Source: Brevundimonas sp. A19_0
Lineage (GTDB): Bacteria; Pseudomonadota; Alphaproteobacteria; Caulobacterales; Caulobacteraceae
Length of the DNA: 64,000 bases
Direction of reading: 5' to 3'
NCBI RefSeq assembly: GCF_017744255.1
Contig: NZ_JAGHQP010000005.1
Coordinates: forward strand, 62,001 to 126,000
A program made the position numbers and the translations under genes. This document shows, piece after piece, positions 52,704 through 63,442 of this stretch (position 1 is its first letter; the number at the start of each line of letters is the position of its first letter). The notes below the pieces were generated by a model. The model had not been told where the DNA came from. It saw only the letters and a program-made list of their open reading frames with translations, and did not search any database.

Positions 52704-52711
52704 GATGTCTG
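52704..52711. repeat. Target site duplication, left
   Basis: GATGTCTG immediately outside the left inverted repeat. The same 8 bases lie outside the right repeat at 63435-63442, in direct orientation. Confidence 0.9.
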
Positions 52712-52735
52712 CGGCTATGGGTAGCAAACACACCT
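52712..52735 (+). repeat. Terminal inverted repeat, left
   Basis: 24 bp beginning CGGCTATGGGTAGC and ending ACACCT. It matches the reverse complement of 63411-63434 without mismatch. The sequence just inside (TTGACG, 52735-52740) resembles a -35 element, but I see no well-spaced -10. Confidence 0.92.
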
Positions 52736-52778
52736 TGACGGACGAGACCGTGAGAAGCCGTGTCTTTATGTTGAGGGC

Positions 52779-53285
52779 ATGGCAAGTTCGATCATCCCTT
52801 TCGGCACCGAGCACTCTGTCGCCCTTCACACCCTCGTCCGTAAACGCGCCGAGCTGGACGGGGAGTTGGAGCAACATCAGGGACTCGTCCGCGACCTTCA
52901 GAAGACGATCCAGAACCTGGACGCGGTCCTTGTCCTGCTCAAGCCGGACATCGACATCGGTGAAATCGCCCCGAAGCGAGCCCGGCCAGTTCACGCTGCT
53001 GCGCCGGGAGAGATCACCGGCATAGTCGTCGATTGTCTGCGAGAAGCTGACGGACCGGTGACGTCGAGAGAGTTGGCTCGCGCCGTCGTTGAAGTGCGGG
53101 AACTCGACCCCGAAGACAGGACTCTGGAAGTCACGATGGCCAGACGTGTTCGAGCCTGTCTGAGGCCCTTGCGGCTAGCCGGACGAGTTCGCGCCGTGCC
53201 TATGGCGTCGGGACCGCAGGGCTGGGTTTTGGCGACCAAGCAGTTCGAGCAGCCGGTTACCGTCCCGCTGGAGCTGACTCGATGA
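52779..53285 (+). CDS. Coiled-coil / winged-helix protein at the left end
   Basis: A 168-residue protein. N-terminal coiled coil (LVRKRAELDGELEQHQGLVRDLQKTIQNLDAVLVLL), a KPDIDIGEIAPKR linker, and a C-terminal winged-helix-like part (ITGIVVDCLREADGPVTSRELARAVVEVRELD..., VRACLRPLRLAGRVRAVP). The gene starts 43 bases inside the left repeat and reads inward. A similar protein is encoded at the other end (62805-63368). It overlaps the next gene by ATGA. Confidence 0.75.
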   Translation: MASSIIPFGTEHSVALHTLVRKRAELDGELEQHQGLVRDLQKTIQNLDAVLVLLKPDIDIGEIAPKRARPVHAAAPGEITGIVVDCLREADGPVTSRELARAVVEVRELDPEDRTLEVTMARRVRACLRPLRLAGRVRAVPMASGPQGWVLATKQFEQPVTVPLELTR

Positions 53286-53482
53286 ACAGCATCTCCTTCT
53301 TCCACGGAAACCAGCTCTGCCAGATCGCGCCAGAGCGCGATGGTCGGGGGTTCATCGGACTCCGGAACGGACGAGTCGTCGCGACCGCGGCTGACCGAGC
53401 CAGCGTGGCTCGGGCGTTGATCAAGGCGACGTGCTGGCGAAAGGGCCTGAGAGATGAGGCGGCGGGCGCGCCAGGCACCTGA
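53282..53482 (+). CDS. Small hypothetical protein
   Basis: A 66-residue protein (NSISFFHGNQLCQIAPERDGRGFIGLRNGRVVATAADRASVARAL). Coupled to the upstream winged-helix gene by an ATGA overlap. Not recognised. Confidence 0.55.
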   Translation: MNSISFFHGNQLCQIAPERDGRGFIGLRNGRVVATAADRASVARALIKATCWRKGLRDEAAGAPGT

Positions 53483-53590
53483 ATCGCCAAACGCGGAACG
53501 ACCACATCTTGAACGCCATCCGCTGAAGTCCGCGCTCGCGGCGCAACCGATTATTCGTTGCTGTCGCCGCCAACCGTGCTAAACGACGGC

Positions 53591-53935
53591 ATGGTCCGGT
53601 CGGAGAACAGGCACAGCATCATCGCGGCGCTCTTTGCGCTGTTCGTCGCCGTGTTCGTTCTGATCCCGACCGTCGATGCTGCGGCCTGCGCCGTGGAACT
53701 GGAACCCGCTCATGCGGCGGCGTCGGTCGCCGACGACGGTGGTGATCTGCCGTCTGATTCCGACGACCATGCCATCTGCTCACACGGCCACTGTCATCAC
53801 AGCGGCACCGCGATGCCGTCATCGACCCAATCCGTCGCGGTGACGGCGATAGTCGCTCCGAACCTGCTGCGCCCGACTGACGAGCCCTTGGCGTCTCGCG
53901 AGCCCGGCGGCCTGGAACGCCCTCCCAGAGCCTGA
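53591..53935 (+). CDS. His/Cys-rich periplasmic protein (CopL-like)
   Basis: A 114-residue protein with an N-terminal hydrophobic export segment (IIAALFALFVAVFVLIPTVDAAAC) and a short Cys/His cluster HAICSHGHCHHSG near residue 65, typical of small metal-binding proteins found before czc/cop efflux genes. The ATG at 53591 is preferred to an upstream TTG-like start. It lies 57 bases before czcC. Probably a metal-binding or regulatory accessory. Confidence 0.65.
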   Translation: MVRSENRHSIIAALFALFVAVFVLIPTVDAAACAVELEPAHAAASVADDGGDLPSDSDDHAICSHGHCHHSGTAMPSSTQSVAVTAIVAPNLLRPTDEPLASREPGGLERPPRA

Positions 53936-53992
53936 CGATGTCCTGCGCCTTTCGGCGCGCGTCAATCGTCTGGAACTTCTGGGATATGGAAC

Positions 53993-55246
53993 ATGTCACC
54001 CCTGAAATCTGGCCGATCGCGTCTCGCGATCGGCTGCGCCGTGGTCGCGATGGCGACCGCCGCGATCGGCCCCGCCTGGGCCGATCCTGTGCCCTCATAT
54101 GAAAAATTGCTTGAGCGCATCGGGCTCACACCGGGCGCGCTAGAGGCGGAGGCCTTGGTGGATGCGGCCGAAGCCCGCGCTCGTCAGGCCGGCGTGAGGC
54201 CGAACCCGGAACTCAGTCTCGAAGCTGAAAACGCTCTCGGAACCGGCCCCTTCTCGGGTTACGGGAACGCCGAGACGACCTTGTCCGTCAGCCAGGACTT
54301 GGAACTCTGGGGACGGCGGGGCGCAAGGGTCGGGGTGGCCCAAGCTGAAGGCAGAACGTCCCTTCTCCGGCGCGATCTCGCCACCCTGGATGCCGCTGGC
54401 AGGCTCGCGCTGGCCTATGCCGAGGCCGAAGCCGCCGACCGGCGTTTCGTCCTCGCTCAGGAAGCCCTCGACCTGACGATCGCGGACGCTCGCGCATTGA
54501 TGATCCTGGTGGAAGAGGGGCGCGAGCCCTTGTTTCGCGGCATTCAGGCCCAGAGCGAGGCAGCGGCGGCGAGGGCAGCGCTTGACGAAGCCGAGGCTGA
54601 ACGGGACGCCGCCTTCGCAAGACTGACCGCCGTGGCGATGCTGCCGAACCCGGCGACTTCGATCGAATATAGCCTGCTGGACCGCGAGCCCCCTGCCGTC
54701 GTCCCGACATCCTCGGCGTCACCGGAGGTGAGGGTGGCGGAGGCCGAACGCGACGCCGCTGAAAGCCGGATCGAGGTGGAGCGGGTGCGAGCACGACCGG
54801 ACGTTCGGGTCTCGGTCGGCGTCCGCCGCTACGAGGCTGAAGACGCGACCGCTCTCACGTTTGGCCTCAGCATGCCCTTGCCCCTCTTCGACCGGAACCG
54901 GGGCAACTACGATGCCGCACAGGCCGAGTTCCGCGCCGCCGACGCCCGCGTGATGGCCGCGCGGCAGACGACTCAGGCGGACCTAGCCGGCGCCGAAGCC
55001 AGGCTTCGGTCGGCCAGCAGTCGCGTGTGGGCCACCGACGCAGGGGTGACCGCCGCTGAGGAGGCGTATCGCCTCTCACGGATCGGATTTGACGCCGGTC
55101 GCATCTCGCAACTCGAACTCAGTTCATCTCGCGCGGCGCTCATCGCCGCCCGCAACGCCGCCGTGGACGCTCGCCTCGCGCGCGTTCGGGCGGAAGTCGA
55201 TCTAGCGCTCCTGCAAGGACGCGCCCCGTTTGGAACATCGCTATGA
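53993..55246 (+). CDS. czcC: Outer membrane efflux protein CzcC-like
   Basis: A 417-residue TolC-type outer membrane channel. Signal peptide ending at AWA-D (about residue 31), then two OEP repeats with long helices (LALAYAEAEAADRRFVLAQEALDL, RIEVERVRARPDVRVSVGVRRYEAEDATALTFGLSMPLPLFDRNRG, YRLSRIGFDAGRISQLELSSSRAAL). The set belongs to a heavy-metal RND pump. It overlaps czcB by ATGA. Confidence 0.9.
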   Translation: MSPLKSGRSRLAIGCAVVAMATAAIGPAWADPVPSYEKLLERIGLTPGALEAEALVDAAEARARQAGVRPNPELSLEAENALGTGPFSGYGNAETTLSVSQDLELWGRRGARVGVAQAEGRTSLLRRDLATLDAAGRLALAYAEAEAADRRFVLAQEALDLTIADARALMILVEEGREPLFRGIQAQSEAAAARAALDEAEAERDAAFARLTAVAMLPNPATSIEYSLLDREPPAVVPTSSASPEVRVAEAERDAAESRIEVERVRARPDVRVSVGVRRYEAEDATALTFGLSMPLPLFDRNRGNYDAAQAEFRAADARVMAARQTTQADLAGAEARLRSASSRVWATDAGVTAAEEAYRLSRIGFDAGRISQLELSSSRAALIAARNAAVDARLARVRAEVDLALLQGRAPFGTSL

Positions 55247-56430
55247 AAAGCACGCCCAAGATCAACAAGACCTGGCTGATGGCCGGGGTCGCCGCCGTCG
55301 TCGTCCTGAGTGGCGCGGGGCTCTATGCCATGGTCCGCTCACCCGCCGAGGCTCCAGCAGCGGAGGGGGAAGCCGAACATTCCGAAGCGGAAGGCGAGCA
55401 CGCCGAGGAAGCGGGCGGCGAAGAAGGCGTCGTCGTCCTGACGGCGGCCCAGATCACCGCCGCCAACATCGCTATCGTCGCCGTGACCGGCGGCGGGGGC
55501 GGCGAAACCCGACTGTCGGGCCGGGTGGAACCGATGATCGACGCGAGGGCCGTCGTGGCGGCGTCCGTCGGCGGCCGGGTCGAGCGCGTGCTGGTGGCAC
55601 CGGGTCAATCCGTGCGCGCGGGACAGCCCTTGGCCATTCTGGTCAGTGGCGATGCCGCCAGCCTTCGGGCCGACGCCGACGCTGCGGAGGCCAATGCGAT
55701 AGCCGCCGAACAAGCGCATAGTCGCGAAGAGAGCCTGGCCGATCAGGGTGTCGTGGCCCGCCGGGACGCCGAGGTCGCTCATGCCCAGGCGCTCAGCGCC
55801 CAGGCGGCGGCCCGCGCCGCCCGCGCGCGCGCCTCGGCCGCCGGCTCTCCCAATTCCTCGGGTCGACTCAGCGTCGTCAGCCCCATCAGCGGGATCGTGA
55901 CCAGCGTTCAGGTCGGGCCGGGTGGCTTCGCCGCCCAAGGTGGCGTCATCGCGGAGGTCACCAATCCTGCGCGGGTCGAGATCGTCTTCACGGCGCCTCC
56001 CGCACTCGCCGCGCAGGTTCGCGCGGGTTCGACCATGCGCGTGCAGGGACCGGCGGGCGAGTTCGACGCCGTCGTCACCGGCGTCGCCGCCGACGCAGGC
56101 GAGGAAAGCGGAGCCACGATCATCCGCGCCCGACCGGCGGGCGGGGGTCTGCCGCCGGCAGGATCGGCCGTCTCCGGCATTGTGGTCACGGGCCAGTCCG
56201 TAGGCGGCCTCACGGTCCCGTCCGACGCCGTTCAGACGGTGGAGGGCGCGAACGTGGTGTTCGTGCGCACCGCGACGGGCTTTCGCGCCGCTCCCGTCCT
56301 GGTCGGCAGGCAGGCCGGCGGCCGGACCGAAATCCTGAGCGGCCTCACCGGCACCGAGCGCATCGCCGGAACCAACGCCTTCCTCCTGAAAGCCGAACTC
56401 GCCAAGGGCGAGGCCGAGCACGGCCACTAG
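55243..56430 (+). CDS. czcB: RND efflux membrane fusion protein CzcB-like
   Basis: A 395-residue periplasmic adaptor. One N-terminal membrane segment (about 11-31), a Glu/His-rich linker (GEAEHSEAEGEHAEEAGGEEG), a barrel/lipoyl/hairpin core (GGRVERVLVAPGQSVRAGQPLAIL; hairpin about 145-200; TSVQVGPGGFAAQGG), and a His-ending tail (GEAEHGH). The acidic/His linker could bind the transported metal. Links CzcC to CzcA. Confidence 0.91.
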   Translation: MKSTPKINKTWLMAGVAAVVVLSGAGLYAMVRSPAEAPAAEGEAEHSEAEGEHAEEAGGEEGVVVLTAAQITAANIAIVAVTGGGGGETRLSGRVEPMIDARAVVAASVGGRVERVLVAPGQSVRAGQPLAILVSGDAASLRADADAAEANAIAAEQAHSREESLADQGVVARRDAEVAHAQALSAQAAARAARARASAAGSPNSSGRLSVVSPISGIVTSVQVGPGGFAAQGGVIAEVTNPARVEIVFTAPPALAAQVRAGSTMRVQGPAGEFDAVVTGVAADAGEESGATIIRARPAGGGLPPAGSAVSGIVVTGQSVGGLTVPSDAVQTVEGANVVFVRTATGFRAAPVLVGRQAGGRTEILSGLTGTERIAGTNAFLLKAELAKGEAEHGH

Positions 56431-56441
56431 GGAGCGAGAGC

Positions 56442-59400
56442 ATGTTCAGCGCAATCATCGCGGCATCCGTCCGCTTCCGTTGGTTCGTCATCCTGGCGGT
56501 CAGCCTCGTGGCGGCCCTGGGTCTGTTCGAACTGACCAAACTGCCCATCGACGCCGTTCCCGACATCACCAATAGACAGGTCCAGATCACCACGGTCGCT
56601 CCCGCCCTGGCGCCCGAGCAGATCGAGCGGCAGGTCACCTATCCGTTGGAAACTGCTCTCGCCGGCATCCCCGGCCTGACCAGCACGCGATCGCTGTCGC
56701 GCAACGGCTTTAGCCAGATTACCGCGATCTTCACCGACCAGACCGACATCTATTTCGCGCGTCAGCAGGTGGCCGAACGGCTCGCCGCCGCGTCCGAGGG
56801 ACTTCCTGAAGGCGTGGAGCCGGGGTTGTCGCCGATCACCACCGGCCTCGGCGAAGTGTTGATGTGGACGGTCGATTACATCCCCTTCAACACCGAGAAT
56901 CTTGCCAGCCCCGGCCAGCCGGGCTGGCAGGCGGGCGGCGTCTATCTGACACCCGAGGGCGAGCGACTGACGACGCCCGAGGAGCGCGCGACCTATCTCC
57001 GCACCGTCCAGGATTGGATCATCGCGCCGCAGATGCGCACGACCGCCGGCCTGGCCGGCGTCGATACCATCGGCGGCTACGTCAAGGAGTATGCCGTCAG
57101 GCCCGATGCCGCTCGGTTGTCCGCCTATGGTCTTGGCCTCGGCGATCTGGTCGAGGCGGTCGAACGCGCCAACACCCAAGCAGGCGCAGGCTATATCCAG
57201 CGTGCGGGCGAGGCTTTGGTCGTCCGCACGGACGCCTTGGCGCTGACCATCGACGATCTGGCCCAGGCCCCCGTGGTCAATCGCGGCGGTCTGGTCGTCC
57301 GGGTCGCCGACGTCGCGACGGTCGAGATCGGGCAGGCTCCACGTTTGGGCGGCGCCAGCCGCGACGGACATGAAGCGGTCCTTGGCACCGCCTTGATGAT
57401 CGCCGGCGGCAACAGCCGCACGGTGGCCCAGGCGGCGGCCGAGCGGCTGGCGGTGGTGGACGACAGCCTGCCTCCTGGCATCGTCGCCCTGCCGGTCCTG
57501 AACCGCAGTGAACTGGTGAACTCGACCATCTCGACCGTCGCTCGGAACCTGACCGAGGGCGCGCTGCTGGTCATCGTCGTCCTGTTCCTGCTGCTGGGCA
57601 ACATCCGGGCGGCCACCATCACGGCCCTGATGATCCCGCTGTCGTTCCTGTTCGCCGTCATCGGCATGAATAGGTTCGGCATCAGCGGCAACTTGATGAG
57701 CCTGGGCGCGCTGGACTTCGGCCTGATGGTCGATGGCGCCGTCGTGGTGATCGAGAACACCCTGCTGATGCTGACGCAGCGACGGGCTCAACTCGGCCGG
57801 ATGCTGACCCGACACGAGCGGCTGGACGTGGCGGTTCAGTCCGCGCGCCAGATGGTGAAGCCGGCCGCCTTCGGTCAATTGATCATCCTGCTGGTGTTCG
57901 CGCCGCTGCTGCTTCTGGAGGGGGTCGAAGGCAAGACGTTCCAACCGATGGGCGCCACCGTCATGCTCGCCCTCGTCGGAGCCTTCATCTTCTCCTTTAC
58001 CTTCGTGCCCGCCATGACTGCCTTGCTGGTGCGCGATCCGAAGTCCGTTCACCTCGGCGGCGACGGTCAGGTCGAGGAGCACGAGACCTGGCTTCTCCGC
58101 TTCGCCCGGCGGTTCCTCCAACCAGCGATCCAGGCGGCTGTGTCACGGCCGAAGATCGTGCTGATCTCCGCCGTGGCGGCCCTCGCCGTCGGGCTCACCT
58201 CCTTCATGGCGCTGGGCCGGGAATTCATCCCGACGCTCGACGAGGGCGACATCGCCATGCAGGCGTTGCGCGTGCCGTCCGCGTCCTTGGAGCAATCCTT
58301 GGCGATGCAGATGGCGTTGGAGCGCGCCATCAAGGCCCAGCCCGAGGTGGAGACCATGTTTTCGCGCACCGGCACGGCCGAGGCCGCCGTGGACCCTATG
58401 CCGCCCAACATCTCCGACAGCGTCATCGTGCTGAAGGACCGCAAGGATTGGCCCGATCCGGGCCTGGAGAAGGACGAACTGATCGAGCGGATCGAAGGCG
58501 TGGCCGCCCAGCAGATCGGCAACAATTTCGAGTTCAGCCAGCCGATCGAACTGCGCTTCAATGAACTGATCTCCGGCGTCCGCACCGACCTCGCCGTCAT
58601 GGTCTATGGCGACGACTTCGACACCCTTCAGCGGGTGGCGGACCAGGTCGCGACCGCGCTGCGGGAGACGACCGGGTCAGCCGACGTTCGTGTCGAGCAG
58701 GCGTCCGGCCTGCCCACCCTGACCGTCAGCGTAGATCGAACCGCCGCCGCCAGCTACGGCCTGTCGGCCGCAGACGTCAGCGAAGCGGTCTCGGCCGGCA
58801 TCGGCGGCGCCGAGGCCGGACGCATCTTCGAGGGCGACCGGCGGTTCGACGTCGTCGTCCGCCTGCCCGACGACGCCCGCAACGACCCGGCGGCCCTGGC
58901 GGCGCTTCCCATCGTATCCGACACCGGCGTGATCGTGCCCCTGTCTTCGGTCGCGCGGATTCAGACGGCGGAGGGTCCGAACCAGATCAGCCGCGAGAAC
59001 GGCAGCCGCCGTATGGTGGTCCAGGCCAACGTGCGCGGTCGCGACCTGGGGGGCTTCGTCACCGACGCCCAGAGCCAGGTCGCGGAGATCGACCTTCCGG
59101 CCGGGGTCTATCTGGATTGGGGCGGGCAGTTCGAGAACCTAAAGCGAGCCGAGCAACGCTTCGGCCTCGTCATTCCGATCGTGTTCGTCCTGATCGGGGT
59201 GCTGCTGTTCCTCGCCTTGGGATCGTTCGCGGAGGCCGGTCTGGTCTTCGCCTGCGTCCCCCTGGCTTTGGTGGGCGGCGCCCTCGCGCTGCTGCTGCGC
59301 GGAATGCCGTTCTCGGTCTCGGCGGCGGTCGGCTTCATCGCCGTGTCAGGGGTCGCCACCCTGAACGGACTGGTGCTTATGCAGGCCATCCGCCAACGCC

Positions 59401-59663
59401 TGAACGAGGGCCTGCCTGCCAAGGTGGCGGCGATCGAAGGAGCCGCCAGCCGACTGCGCGCGGTGCTGACGACCGCTTTGGTTGCGATCGTCGGCTTCAT
59501 CCCGATGGCTCTGGCGCACGGAGCCGGAGCCGAGGTGCAGAAGCCGCTCGCAACGGTCGTGATCGGGGGCCTTTTGACGGCGACGGCGTTGACCCTGCTC
59601 GTGCTGCCGACGTTCGCCGCCAAGGCGGTTCGGCATCGTGCTTCGGAAGGACTGGAAGATTGA
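56442..59663 (+). CDS. czcA: Heavy-metal RND efflux pump CzcA-like
   Basis: A 1073-residue inner-membrane proton/metal antiporter of the HME-RND family. Twelve membrane helices with two large periplasmic loops. N-terminal [36 protein letters not shown] is typical. The fourth helix motif reads [19 protein letters not shown], the DFGxxxDGAVxxxEN pattern of the zinc/cobalt/cadmium subgroup rather than the copper/silver one. Substrate within that group cannot be fixed by eye. It overlaps the CDF-type gene at the stop. Confidence 0.93.
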
Positions 59664-60256
59664 GCAAACTGACCTCGGCGGACCATCAACAGCGGCGCAC
59701 GTTGCTGATCGTCCTGATCCTCAACGCCCTGCTGTTCCTGGGTCTCGGCATCGGCGGCATCATGGCCGACTCCAGCGCGCTGCTGGCCAACGCCGTCGAC
59801 AACGCCTCGGACTCGATCGTTTACCTGATCAGCTTTGTGGCGATCGGACGCGCCGCGTCCTGGAAACAGGGCGCGGCACGCCTGTCCGGTATCCTGTTGC
59901 TGGTCTTCGCCGCCGGCGTGCTGATCGACGTCGGCCGGCGCTGGTGGTTCGGCACAGAGCCGGTCGGCTGGACGATGATGGGTCTGGCACTCGTCGCTGC
60001 GATCGTGAACTTGATCTGCCTGGTGCTCCTGCGACGGGACCAGTCCGGCGACGTCAACATGGAAGCGGCCGAGACCTTCAGCCTGAACGACTTCGCCTCG
60101 AACGGCGGCATCCTCGTCGCCGGTGGTCTGGTCATGTGGCTGGATCAGGCCTGGCCCGATCTGGTCGTCGGCATGCTGGTCGCGGCGATCGCCGTGAAAG
60201 GCGGCATCGGAATTCTGCGCAGCGCGTCGGACAAGGACAAGGGCCCCTCGCAGTGA
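59660..60256 (+). CDS. Small CDF-type cation transporter
   Basis: A 198-residue membrane protein with six predicted helices. The second holds [32 protein letters not shown], the CDF pattern with two Asp residues, and a later helix has [10 protein letters not shown]. There is no C-terminal cytoplasmic metal-binding domain. It begins with a TTG overlapping the czcA stop (TTGA), so it is translationally coupled to the pump. Likely moves divalent metal from cytoplasm to periplasm. Confidence 0.82.
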
Positions 60257-60585
60257 CGATCAAGGTCGGGCTCTACTACAGTCTCGCGGCCATTGCCGAG
60301 ATCGCTGGTTGCTTCACTTTCTGGATGTGGCTGCGGCAGGATCGCTCGGTCTGGTGGATCGTGCCGGGAATTCTCTGCCTCGTGGCTTTCGCCTTCTTCC
60401 TCACTCGGGTGGAAGTTGATGCCGCCGGCCGCACCTACGCCATATACGGCGGCGTCTACATCGCGGCGTCGCTGCTTTGGCTATGGCTGGTCGAACGTCA
60501 ACCGCCCGATCGCTGGGACCTGCTGGGTGCGGTCGTGTGCCTGATCGGTTCAGGAATTATCCTGCTATCGCACCGCCCGACATGA
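60253..60585 (+). CDS. YnfA family (UPF0060) membrane protein
   Basis: A 110-residue four-helix membrane protein ([75 protein letters not shown]). The family sits in the drug/metabolite transporter superfamily and often accompanies metal resistance genes. It uses a GTG in a GTGA overlap with the CDF gene. Last gene of the efflux unit. Confidence 0.88.
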
Positions 60586-60712
60586 AGGGGGGCTAGGCCA
60601 CCGAGCCCGCAGCCAATTGAGTCGAAGCCGGTCACCGGGTCTGGCGAGTGCCCATCGGTCGGTGCGTTGGCCGAGCTGCCCAAATCTCCGGCGGAAACCA
60701 CCGGAACATGGA

Positions 60713-61081
60713 TCAATCCTTCTTCGGAGCTTCCACCAAGGCTGCGATCAGCTCTGGCGTCAGCCGAACCTGCGGAACATTGCCAACCAGCTCTGGTGGC
60801 AATGTGAATTCCCCTGTGAACTGAGGCTTGAAGGGGATCAGGTCGATCCCAAGCACGTGCATGAATTGCAGCATGAAGGTCGCCGGGAAAGTCCCCCGGC
60901 TGATCTTGTTGCGAACGCTGACCTCGGTCTCTTCGATCCCTATCGCCCGCATGCGCTCCGCAATGTCGCCATAGGTGAGATTCTGGCGCCGCTGCTCAAC
61001 CCGCAATAGCGTTCGCGCCTTTTCCCGCCAAGCGTCCTCGGGATCATCAACGTCGGCGGGGTTTCCAGCGCGCTTAGCCAT
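60713..61081 (-). CDS. DUF6471 family putative regulator
   Basis: A 122-residue protein with the DUF6471 pattern WREKARTLLRVEQRRQNLTYGDIAERMRAIGIEETEVSVRNKISRGTFPATFMLQFMHVLGI, which reads like a Cro-type helix-turn-helix. It is divergent from the transposase gene across a 99-base spacer that holds an inverted repeat. An autorepressor and transposase repressor is a reasonable guess, not shown. Confidence 0.75.
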   Translation of the reverse strand: MAKRAGNPADVDDPEDAWREKARTLLRVEQRRQNLTYGDIAERMRAIGIEETEVSVRNKISRGTFPATFMLQFMHVLGIDLIPFKPQFTGEFTLPPELVGNVPQVRLTPELIAALVEAPKKD

Positions 61082-61125
61082 GACCGTTCATGCCATCACT
61101 CCTCGGACCGATCAACCAATGCGAC

Positions 61126-61147
61126 TTATCGCTCGTCAACGCGATAA
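61126..61147. promoter_or_regulatory. Operator-like inverted repeat
   Basis: TTATCGC (61126-61132) and GCGATAA (61141-61147), perfect 7-bp arms with an 8-base spacer, between the divergent DUF6471 and transposase genes. A candidate binding site for the DUF6471 protein. Confidence 0.5.
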
Positions 61148-61180
61148 AACGCGCACATATGCGACACACTTCTTGACGCC

Positions 61181-62833
61181 GTGACGCCGACCGAGATTGC
61201 CGAACTCTCGGAGGATGACGCGCGTGCGCTGTTTCGTCGGTATCGATTCGCCGAGAATGGCGGGGAGCCGTCCTGCAATCGCTGTGGATGCCCGGCGGCC
61301 TGGACCTATCAAGATGGGAAGCTCTACAAGTGTAAGCAGTGCCTGAGGCAGTTCACCCTGACCACCAACACGCCGTTCGCCTACCGCAAGCTGCCGTTCA
61401 AGACGATCCTGCTGATCCTGGCGCAGTTCAACGTGGCCTATCAGGGCCGCAGCGCCCTTGAGATCAAACGCGACCTGCGGGCCAAGGTGAAAAACTACAA
61501 GACGATCTTCGTCTGGCTGCACAAGATCAGATGCGCAATGCAGGCCTTCGAGCGGCGCACGATCCTGCGCGAAGAGATCGAGATCGACGGCAAGGAGTTG
61601 AAAGGATACATCCGCCCCAAGAACGTGCGCAACGAGAAGGATCACTACCGTTTTCCATATGGCGCGCCCGACAGAACGTTTCATGTGACGCTGGCTCGCC
61701 AGCGGGGTGGTCCTGCCCGCGCATGGATCGCGAAGCAGGAGCATCACCCCATCCCGCCGTTCATCGACGTGGTGGACCCAAACGCCGTCGTGTTCGCCGA
61801 CGGCGGCCCCTGGGGTCAGATTCGTGATCATTGCGCGCTGAAGCGGGTGATCCACGACCACCACTTCTATACGCCGGAGGCCTGCACTAACTGGGCCGAA
61901 AGCGGCTTCCGCGTCCTTGAGGGCATGCGGCTGATCTATCGTCGCATCCTCGGCAATTGCCTCGACCTCTACACGGCTCAGCTTACGTGGCGCTTAAGCC
62001 ACACGGGCGTCGGTCCGGACGACGCCTTCGCCGCGCTCCTGGGAACGATGATGACACCAGGCCGCTCGCCAATGGCTGGCTATTTCCTCAAGAAGAAGGC
62101 GGGCGGTTCCAAGCGCCGTTGCAAGATCATCAACGAGGACGGCGCGCCGATCGAGTGGAGTTCACCGAGCGCCGAGGAGCGGCGGCGGGAGCGCAAGGAG
62201 GCCAAGCGCGCCAGCGGAGAAATCGAAACCCCCCGCGTCGCTGATGCCCGATCCGCGAAGCGTTGGCGCGACGGATTCGAGTTCGTATCGGCGGGCGAGT
62301 TCATGGACGATCCCAAGCGAATGCCCCTGAGCCCAGGCGTTTACGGCTTGTTCCTTCGGAACGGCGAACGGCTCTTCAACCTCGCTGGTTATTTCCCTGA
62401 TCCGGAACTTCCGGCGTGGGACTACGGGGTGTGGCGTAACGGATACGTTGGCGAAGGCTACTCTCTGCGCGAGAGGGTGACCGCGCATCTCCTCGGAAGC
62501 ATTGGGGGCTCGCCGTTCCGTCAATCGGTCTTCGCCATCCACTGGGTCGCGGGGACCGGCGAACTCGGCGACCTCAAGAGCCGTTCCGCAAGCGAAGCGG
62601 CCTTGAGCGAATGGCTGCGCCGCGAAGTCGTGATCGGATACAAGGTCTGCGGCTATCACAAGACGGTGGAGAAGGAGATGCTGAAGCGCACCGCCGCGCC
62701 GTTGAACATCCGAGATCGCGATCCATCGCCGTTCGGTCGCCTGCTTTCCAGCCTGCGCCAACGCTTCCGCGAGGCGGTGGTCGCCGCGTGGGAGCCGCCG
62801 CCGCCTACCAGCCGTCCTCGCCAGCGGCGCTAG
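61181..62833 (+). CDS. IS1595/ISXO2-like transposase fused to a GIY-YIG-like domain
   Basis: A 550-residue protein starting with GTG. N-terminal zinc ribbon: SCNRCGC (C32, C35) and KCKQCLRQF (C51, C54). ISXO2-like DDE domain: EIEIDGKELKGYI (D136), VVFADGGPWGQ (D207), TNWAESGFRVLEGMRLIYRRI (E240). After a charged linker (330-370), residues 384-512 look like a GIY-YIG nuclease: GVYGLF (386-388), GYVGEGYSLRERVTAHL (Y422, R432, H436), EKEMLKRTAAPLNIRD (E498, N509). IS1595 transposases are usually about 300 residues. The extra domain is unusual. Confidence 0.82.
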   Translation: MTPTEIAELSEDDARALFRRYRFAENGGEPSCNRCGCPAAWTYQDGKLYKCKQCLRQFTLTTNTPFAYRKLPFKTILLILAQFNVAYQGRSALEIKRDLRAKVKNYKTIFVWLHKIRCAMQAFERRTILREEIEIDGKELKGYIRPKNVRNEKDHYRFPYGAPDRTFHVTLARQRGGPARAWIAKQEHHPIPPFIDVVDPNAVVFADGGPWGQIRDHCALKRVIHDHHFYTPEACTNWAESGFRVLEGMRLIYRRILGNCLDLYTAQLTWRLSHTGVGPDDAFAALLGTMMTPGRSPMAGYFLKKKAGGSKRRCKIINEDGAPIEWSSPSAEERRRERKEAKRASGEIETPRVADARSAKRWRDGFEFVSAGEFMDDPKRMPLSPGVYGLFLRNGERLFNLAGYFPDPELPAWDYGVWRNGYVGEGYSLRERVTAHLLGSIGGSPFRQSVFAIHWVAGTGELGDLKSRSASEAALSEWLRREVVIGYKVCGYHKTVEKEMLKRTAAPLNIRDRDPSPFGRLLSSLRQRFREAVVAAWEPPPPTSRPRQRR

Positions 62834-63368
62834 TCGTCCCGTTCCCGCGCTGTCGCGACTTAAGCGCCCATCGAGGCGGCTGTCCCCCATCTTTTACCAA
62901 ACCCCGCTGAGCGCGCTTCAACGCCGCGTTGATGGCTCCGTATGCCTGAACGTAGGCGGGACCGTCATCGACGCTCAGATCGTGGCGCTCGACGACGCGA
63001 TCCAGCATCTCTCGAACCGTCAACCAGTCTCCGTCCTCTCGCAACACGTCGAAGGCCGCGTCCGCCCATCCGTGCGGCGGACGGTTAGGCCCCCGGCGGA
63101 GCGGCCTGATCAGCTTTTCTTGTTCGGGAGCCCATTCCGGATCGAACATCTGGATAACGTAGACGATGTGCGGAAGCGCCTCCCTGATTTCTTCAGCCCT
63201 CGTTTCACGCTCGGCGGCTTCGGCTGCGAACGCCTCTCCGCCGCGCCACTTCTTCTGCCTCAGTTTGGGCGGGTTCTCTATCCAACGCAGTTCGCCACCC
63301 AGCCGGCCATAGAGGCGCTTCAGATGGCTGGTCAGTTGCTTTCCGCTGTTCTTTCGCCCCAGCGCCAC
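62805..63368 (-). CDS. Winged-helix-like protein at the right end
   Basis: A 187-residue protein (GTG at 63368, AGGGG before it). Basic N-terminus, a Glu/Arg-rich helix, LPHIVYVIQMFDPEW, and a C-terminal winged-helix-like part (WADAAFDVLREDGDWLTVREMLDRVVERHDLS..., NAALKRAQRGLVKDG). Its layout parallels the left-end protein at 52779 (LREADG-T-RE-A-VVE, FDP/KPD). It reads inward from 42 bases inside the right repeat, and its 3' end overlaps the transposase by 29 bases. Confidence 0.7.
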   Translation of the reverse strand: MALGRKNSGKQLTSHLKRLYGRLGGELRWIENPPKLRQKKWRGGEAFAAEAAERETRAEEIREALPHIVYVIQMFDPEWAPEQEKLIRPLRRGPNRPPHGWADAAFDVLREDGDWLTVREMLDRVVERHDLSVDDGPAYVQAYGAINAALKRAQRGLVKDGGQPPRWALKSRQRGNGTTSAAGEDGW

Positions 63369-63410
63369 GCGAGCCCCTCAGAATGACGAGCCAAGGACTT
63401 ATTCGAGCTT

Positions 63411-63434
63411 AGGTGTGTTTGCTACCCATAGCCG
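63411..63434 (-). repeat. Terminal inverted repeat, right
   Basis: 24 bp, the exact reverse complement of the left repeat at 52712-52735. Ends in GCCG at the outer edge. Confidence 0.92.
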
Positions 63435-63442
63435 GATGTCTG
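63435..63442. repeat. Target site duplication, right
   Basis: GATGTCTG, identical to 52704-52711 and in direct orientation, as produced by insertion with an 8-base stagger. Confidence 0.9.

Follow-up and report, generated by a model that had tools for sequence, protein, structure and literature searches.

A predicted IS1595-type transposase joined to a conserved GIY-YIG domain in cargo-carrying transposons of Brevundimonas

Introduction

In Tn7, a transposon with large cargo, TnsA serves as a second nuclease beside the DDE transposase TnsB, and fused TnsAB proteins are also known. The nuclease fold of TnsA differs from that of the GIY-YIG superfamily, whose motifs follow the order GIY, YIG, an Arg/His helix, Glu and Asn. 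Elements of the IS1595 family (ISXO2-like) encode a transposase of about 320 aa with a zinc ribbon and a DDE domain, end in terminal inverted repeats (TIRs) and generate 8-bp duplications, and some of them reportedly carry passenger genes. Duplications of 8 bp are also given for the IS1016 group and Merlin in the accessible part of one source (PMC10045372).

GIY-YIG nucleases have been described in mobile elements of other kinds. According to the available portion of their description, Tsy transposons encode a tyrosine recombinase, an HTH protein, TnsF and a separate GIY-YIG nuclease, whose removal impaired transposition but did not abolish it (PMC10293859). The casposon MetPsy-C1 likewise encodes a GIY-YIG nuclease, suggested in the excerpt at hand to repair its termini (PMC4046053). 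By analogy, the separate Tsy nuclease would be the closest precedent for the domain reported here. In the literature searched, which comprised papers other than preprints and most subscription articles and was in part accessible as excerpts, we found no description of an IS1595-GIY-YIG or DDE-GIY-YIG fusion; in the one paper that names both IS1595 and GIY-YIG, the mentions stand apart.

Results and Discussion

Domains of the fused transposase

The window, i.e., the whole stretch of 64,000 nucleotides from Brevundimonas sp. A19_0 that was analysed, contains at positions 61181–62833 (forward strand, GTG start) an ORF of 550 aa. A preliminary description had read it as an IS1595-type transposase with a zinc ribbon, DDE residues and a GIY-YIG-like nuclease domain added at the C-terminus, and our profile searches bear out both halves of this assignment. 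Pfam matches above the curated cut-offs were obtained on the forward strand for Zn_ribbon_IS1595 (PF12760; residues 9–57, 61205–61351; E 1e-6), DDE_Tnp_IS1595 (PF12762; residues 129–271, 61565–61993; E 7.3e-8) and GIY_YIG_2 (PF20815; residues 422–527; E 1.1e-8, and 1.8e-9 for the isolated C-terminal part). The NCBIfam model NF033547 (IS1595) aligned over positions 2–214 of its 215 (E 1.7e-15), its 57.5 bits lying below the cut-off of 75. The profiles thus confirm the prediction of an IS1595-type transposase joined to a conserved GIY-YIG domain, the protein reaching 550 aa as compared with the length typical of the family.

The GIY-YIG domain occupies approximately residues 366–530 (62276–62770, forward strand), with Y388, Y422, R430, H436, E497 and N509 as its landmarks. 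PF20815 was matched in all seven fused proteins that we recovered (see below), and in all of them GVY (386–388), Y422/G424, R430, R432, H436, E497 and N509 are invariant, which reproduces the superfamily order of GIY, YIG, Arg/His, Glu and Asn and holds down to about 40% identity. The spacing between the first two motifs is extended, as had been proposed, yet GVY and YVG are separated by 33 residues and not 34, and the invariant glutamate is E497, not E498. In the DDE domain, D136, D207 and E240 are invariant in all seven proteins and presumably form the catalytic triad.

We considered whether the added domain might bind DNA or hold the complex together, through end or target contact, with its nuclease chemistry unused. 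Pfam recognizes no further added domain on the transposase besides GIY-YIG, which would suit such a role. Even at about 40% identity, however, the hallmark residues do not vary, and four free-standing PF20815 proteins share the Tyr, Tyr, Arg, Glu and Asn of the fused domain at aligned, invariant positions, so that a non-cutting role appears improbable.

Single-sequence structure prediction gave no usable model (pLDDT 37). The C-terminal 206 residues modelled with ten aligned rows reached moderate quality (pLDDT 56, pTM 0.57), with a strand and helix order compatible with the reference order of the GIY-YIG fold and the strand at YVG unformed. As a check on the C-terminus, which the preliminary description had asked of structure prediction, the outcome was mixed. 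In a second-look structure aligner the top seven rows were all GIY-YIG nucleases, the best being the UvrC N-domain (Z 5.6–5.9) and R.Eco29kI (Z 5.0–5.1 over 124 residues), ahead of an unrelated row at Z 2.5, all values being below 8; Foldseek's own list, in contrast, contained no GIY-YIG entry and nothing at E <1. A PDB sequence search with the C-terminal profile gave no match. The comparison of this predicted model agrees with the profile result, and taken alone its weight would be modest.

The transposon in the window

The gene belongs to a larger context, namely a 10.7-kb cargo transposon delimited by its borders. This unit transposon lies at 52712–63434, has intact ends and, on sequence grounds, is a complete element of IS1595 type. 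Comparison of relatives revealed a sharp right border, 20 bases of which recur inverted 10.7 kb away; a border immediately beyond the DUF6471 gene (see below) is thereby ruled out. The two 24-bp TIRs (52712–52735 and 63411–63434) match perfectly and are flanked by 8-bp target-site duplications, GATGTCTG, at 52704–52711 and 63435–63442. Like the IS1595 family, the element combines a zinc ribbon, a DDE domain, TIRs and 8-bp duplications, the latter being present in all seven fused copies. The Pfam matches, conservation, selection and matched ends together rule out that the gene is a solitary IS or that its motifs match by chance.

Each end holds an inward-reading gene. The left one (52779–53285, forward) encodes a putative HTH-type protein of 168 aa without a Pfam match, and the right one (62805–63368, reverse) a related protein of 187 aa with a HARE-HTH match below the cut-off. 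The cargo, all on the forward strand, consists of a small ORF of 125 aa without a Pfam match (53558–53935), an outer-membrane efflux protein (OEP, PF02321; 53993–55246), a membrane-fusion protein of HlyD/CusB type according to Pfam (55243–56430), an RND efflux pump (ACR_tran, probably of heavy-metal type; 56442–59663), a cation-efflux protein (PF01545; 59660–60256) and a YnfA/UPF0060 membrane protein (60253–60585), the starts of the last two being approximate. Divergent from the transposase lies a DUF6471 gene (60713–61081, reverse; PF20075, 1e-22), a family on which we found no paper in the literature searched and which may act as the element's regulator. Repeated GCGA-type motifs between DUF6471 and the transposase (61110–61177) are conserved in relatives and are possible operator sites. 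Among the 10 scanned window ORFs of the element, Pfam gave no match to TnsC/TniQ and none to Phage_integrase.

At 61177/61178, in the stretch separating DUF6471 from the transposase, alignment with four close relatives revealed a segment of about 88 bp that they possess and the window copy does not, and which covers the region where their transposase gene probably starts. Their frame is open further upstream and would add about 13 residues if a TTG start, which is our choice, were used; the start of the window ORF is uncertain. This loss at the gene start suggests that the window copy may be weakly expressed or inactive, and intact transposase copies that retain the segment exist in relatives.

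Distribution and cargo of fused elements

The search for the same fusion in other elements, proposed in the preliminary description, was productive, since six further copies were found, all within the 131 genomes of Brevundimonas; the full-length fused protein is thus present in seven of these genomes, the window's own included. Four of the relatives share 83–93% identity with the window protein and two (G001 and G014) about 40%. Identical 24-bp TIRs with perfect 8-bp duplications occur at five different sites (window, G033, G077, G129 and G012), the elements measuring 12,997 bp in G033, 12,893 bp in G077 and 10,960 bp in G129, and being split over two contigs in G012. The elements of G001 (12,847 bp) and G014 (17,294 bp) have related TIRs, identical at 23 of 24 positions between their own ends, and 8-bp duplications as well. 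Each of the five close-copy genomes has the 16-base tip once per strand, and it is absent from the other 126 of 131, which include G001 and G014, whose tips diverge. As all seven copies have TIRs and 8-bp duplications, each represents an insertion at a different site. A domesticated transposase at a fixed locus is ruled out by these seven sites.

The core common to all seven elements consists of the fused transposase, DUF6471 and two related HTH-type genes, one reading inward from either end. With these genes and a size of 10–17 kb, they differ from the IS1595 family as described. Their cargo varies. G033, G129 and G012 align with most of the efflux stretch of the window (OEP, HlyD, RND, cation-efflux, YnfA), and G001 carries an efflux set by reading of its ORFs, whereas G077 encodes universal-stress and glycosyltransferase proteins. 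In G014 (L088, 8975–15352), a scan that left out a 1312-aa ORF revealed HerA-like and SbcC-like ATPases and a calcineurin-like phosphoesterase, a defence-like set. Efflux and defence-like genes are carried here by a mobile unit, and no description of a unit of this kind was found in the literature searched. By reading, the fused element of G014 adjoins phage structural genes.

Beyond the genus, a sample of the class (385 genomes, our own included, with at most three candidates scored in most of them) yielded no further listed match joining both halves. In a sample of the phylum (398 genomes, C-terminal profile, at most seven candidates scored) only our own genome, G129 and one weak 47-residue match were obtained. 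A pattern scan of genome contigs returned three records, all among the seven fused copies. In plasmids, 21 records matched the transposase part at <60% identity, none over 80% of the query, and no match to the C-terminal part was found; phages gave no match, and viral contigs gave four matches to the transposase part and none to the C-terminal profile. A decayed remnant of fused type was detected in G519 (L094/L138), from another genus of the family, where it lies in comM; one tip survives, together with fragments of a fused-type linker and C-terminus (E about 5e-7). As seen in these sampled sequences, the fusion would be known from one genus plus this remnant, and rare copies elsewhere are possible.

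Selection and origin of the fusion

Among the five close copies, mean dN/dS was 0.101 for the GIY-YIG part, 0.097 for the DDE part and 0.187 for the linker. The similar values of the first two indicate that purifying selection constrains the added domain as tightly as the transposase core, showing, at the level of sequence, a GIY-YIG domain that is selectively maintained with its hallmark residues. This bears on the notion that the fusion is incidental, i.e., that a nuclease gene was joined by read-through and retained merely as part of the ORF. Such an origin would fit the confinement of the fusion, as seen, to one genus and the decayed G519 remnant; yet a domain dN/dS of 0.10, equal to that of the DDE part and below that of the linker, largely refutes it and leaves it highly improbable.

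In a tree of 29 rows, the seven fused proteins form one clade (support 100/100) on a long branch, at a place where, as the tool warns, long branches meet. Because of this single clade, the GIY-YIG domain was apparently fused to the transposase C-terminus once, and a single event is supported by the sequences.

Unfused relatives and element size

Unfused transposases show 31–36% identity over their length, in frames of 319–364 codons from stop to stop, and their elements carry 8-bp duplications and end in a similar tip of the CGGCATTAGGTAGCAAACGCACC type. Ends could be paired for 13 such elements of 2.5–7.6 kb from Alphaproteobacteria, one of the duplications having a single mismatch. L131, which possesses both tips without a matching duplication, was left out of these complete elements, and L048 and L135, being the same element, were counted once. 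Homologues of the end-HTH gene occur in all 13 unfused and all seven fused elements, and DUF6471 homologues in 11 of the 13, making DUF6471 a near-constant companion of these transposases. In contrast, GIY-YIG profiles (E up to 1, ORFs of at least 50 codons) matched all seven fused elements and none of the 13 unfused ones. As the ends of the unfused relatives are of the same kind and are likewise flanked by 8-bp duplications, the GIY-YIG domain is not required for transposition as such. Fused and unfused elements have their ends and accessory genes in common, so that the added nuclease is open to study by deleting it or changing single residues.

The sizes of the seven fused elements (10.4–17.3 kb, the length of G012 being the sum of its two contig pieces) do not overlap with those of the 13 unfused ones (Mann-Whitney p 2.6e-5). 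As the fused copies form one clade, this link amounts to one evolutionary event and may be coincidental.

Insertion sites

We found that comM holds seven of the 20 unfused loci (L039, L043, L119, L120, L121, L126 and L128, with the comM match on one side only in L119, L121 and L128) and none of the seven fused copies; L121, L122, L123, L124, L128, L131 and L134 enter this count only. Six of the seven lie at or beside the LDELPEF codons, probably the Walker B motif of comM, and the three unfused loci found in Brevundimonas (L119, L120 and L121) are all in this gene. The accessible text on Tsy reports comM, at its Walker B motif, as a hotspot for other transposons (PMC10293859), and with Tn6022 and Tsy among those targeting it, the unfused IS1595-type elements have apparently converged on it independently. 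As far as that text goes, Tsy resembles the fused element in encoding a GIY-YIG nuclease and shares the comM target with the unfused relatives. It differs in using a tyrosine recombinase and no DDE transposase, in keeping the GIY-YIG protein separate and in having no inverted repeats detected by its authors.

Five fused copies are inserted within REP-like repeats or at their margin. Segments of the empty-site sequence of G129 have matches in 125 of 130 genomes of the genus, that of G129 among them, and this repeat is common to the flanks of G077, G129, G012 and G001; the flanks of G033 and G014 resemble one another (E 5e-34), with two copies seen. Four elements (G129, G077, G033 and G014) are inserted inside the repeat stretch, that of G012 at its margin and that of G001 about 30–40 bp from it. 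For the window site there was no REP-like match within the window, comparison with 130 other genomes gave short partial matches in two, and no empty site was found in relatives. The dispersed repeat (L143–L152), parts of which match 125 of 130 genomes, carries a CCCTCTCCC...GGGAGAGGG hairpin. Hairpins with a stem of at least 7 bp within 50 bp of the site were present at 6/7 fused and 4/13 unfused sites and at 9% of 3000 random positions drawn from the flanking DNA of the fused copies, in tests of motif and hairpin that were chosen after the sites had been seen.

These sites raise the question of whether the GIY-YIG domain itself selects or nicks the target, recognizing REP-like palindromic repeats and having moved the preference of the element from comM to the repeats in Brevundimonas. 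The repeat of G129 shared by four flanks and so widespread in the genus, the hairpins near six of the seven fused sites as against 9% of random positions, and the presence in comM of seven of the 20 unfused loci, the three found in the same genus among them, and of no fused one would all agree with this. On the other hand, the window site is not a repeat, the decayed fused-type remnant of G519 lies in comM, hairpins accompany some unfused sites too, surviving insertions are biased to intergenic DNA, and the tests were picked with the sites in view. We therefore consider target selection by the domain rather unlikely, although action at the target is probably the second possibility to weigh. 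A strict rule assigning fused elements to REP-like repeats and unfused ones to comM was ruled out by the window site and the G519 remnant, the latter indicating no strict link between fusion and the targeting of repeats.

What the GIY-YIG domain may do

The added domain may alter how the element cuts itself out or how it picks its landing site. The preliminary description conjectured that a second nuclease could process the ends or resolve joints and thereby give a transposition mode different from that of usual IS1595 elements. The reading that we favour, with reserve, is that the fused GIY-YIG is a selected domain in a mobile IS1595-type transposon and most likely makes an additional cut during transposition. 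The element moves by its DDE transposase, which acts on the 24-bp inverted repeats and duplicates 8 bp of target, as the sequences show. The GIY-YIG domain could make its additional cut within the transposition complex, e.g., at the element ends in the strand that is not transferred, and this extra cut might free a large cargo element cleanly from its donor, a part played in Tn7 by TnsA alongside TnsB. The comparison with TnsA/TnsB and TnsAB is a proposed analogy; the scanned ORFs of the window element have no TnsC or TniQ match.

More speculatively still, the protein could combine two nucleases in one polypeptide, cleavage and joining of the transferred strands being the task of the DDE domain, and cleavage of the other strand, or opening of a palindromic target, that of the GIY-YIG domain. 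Such an arrangement would have arisen independently of TnsAB, to similar effect and with a different nuclease fold, and would let an IS1595-type element excise cleanly with 10–17 kb of efflux or defence-like genes and insert them into scattered REP-like repeats. The system bears on how DDE elements handle the second strand and on how small IS-type systems scale to cargo.

A further role would be an attack on rivals or empty sites, through a homing-like cut of the uninserted target or the cutting of competing elements. Many GIY-YIG proteins are homing or restriction enzymes, as stated in the available part of one source (PMC1564403), and one copy (G014) has the HerA-like and SbcC-like cargo. 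Fusion to a transposase nevertheless favours action within the transposition complex, and cutting a high-copy repeat would probably harm the host, which makes such an attack quite improbable.

Free-standing PF20815 proteins

PF20815 was detected in six of 289 genomes of the class, our own included. In the five others it occurs in frames of 183–313 codons, too short for a fusion. These free-standing proteins belong to the same family as the fused domain and have its Tyr, Tyr, Arg, Glu and Asn aligned, and a gene of the type seen in G072, from the same genus, is a possible source of that domain. In G072 (L033, 1471–3493), the free-standing PF20815 gene adjoins an ORF weakly resembling tyrosine recombinases (Pfam E 0.048).
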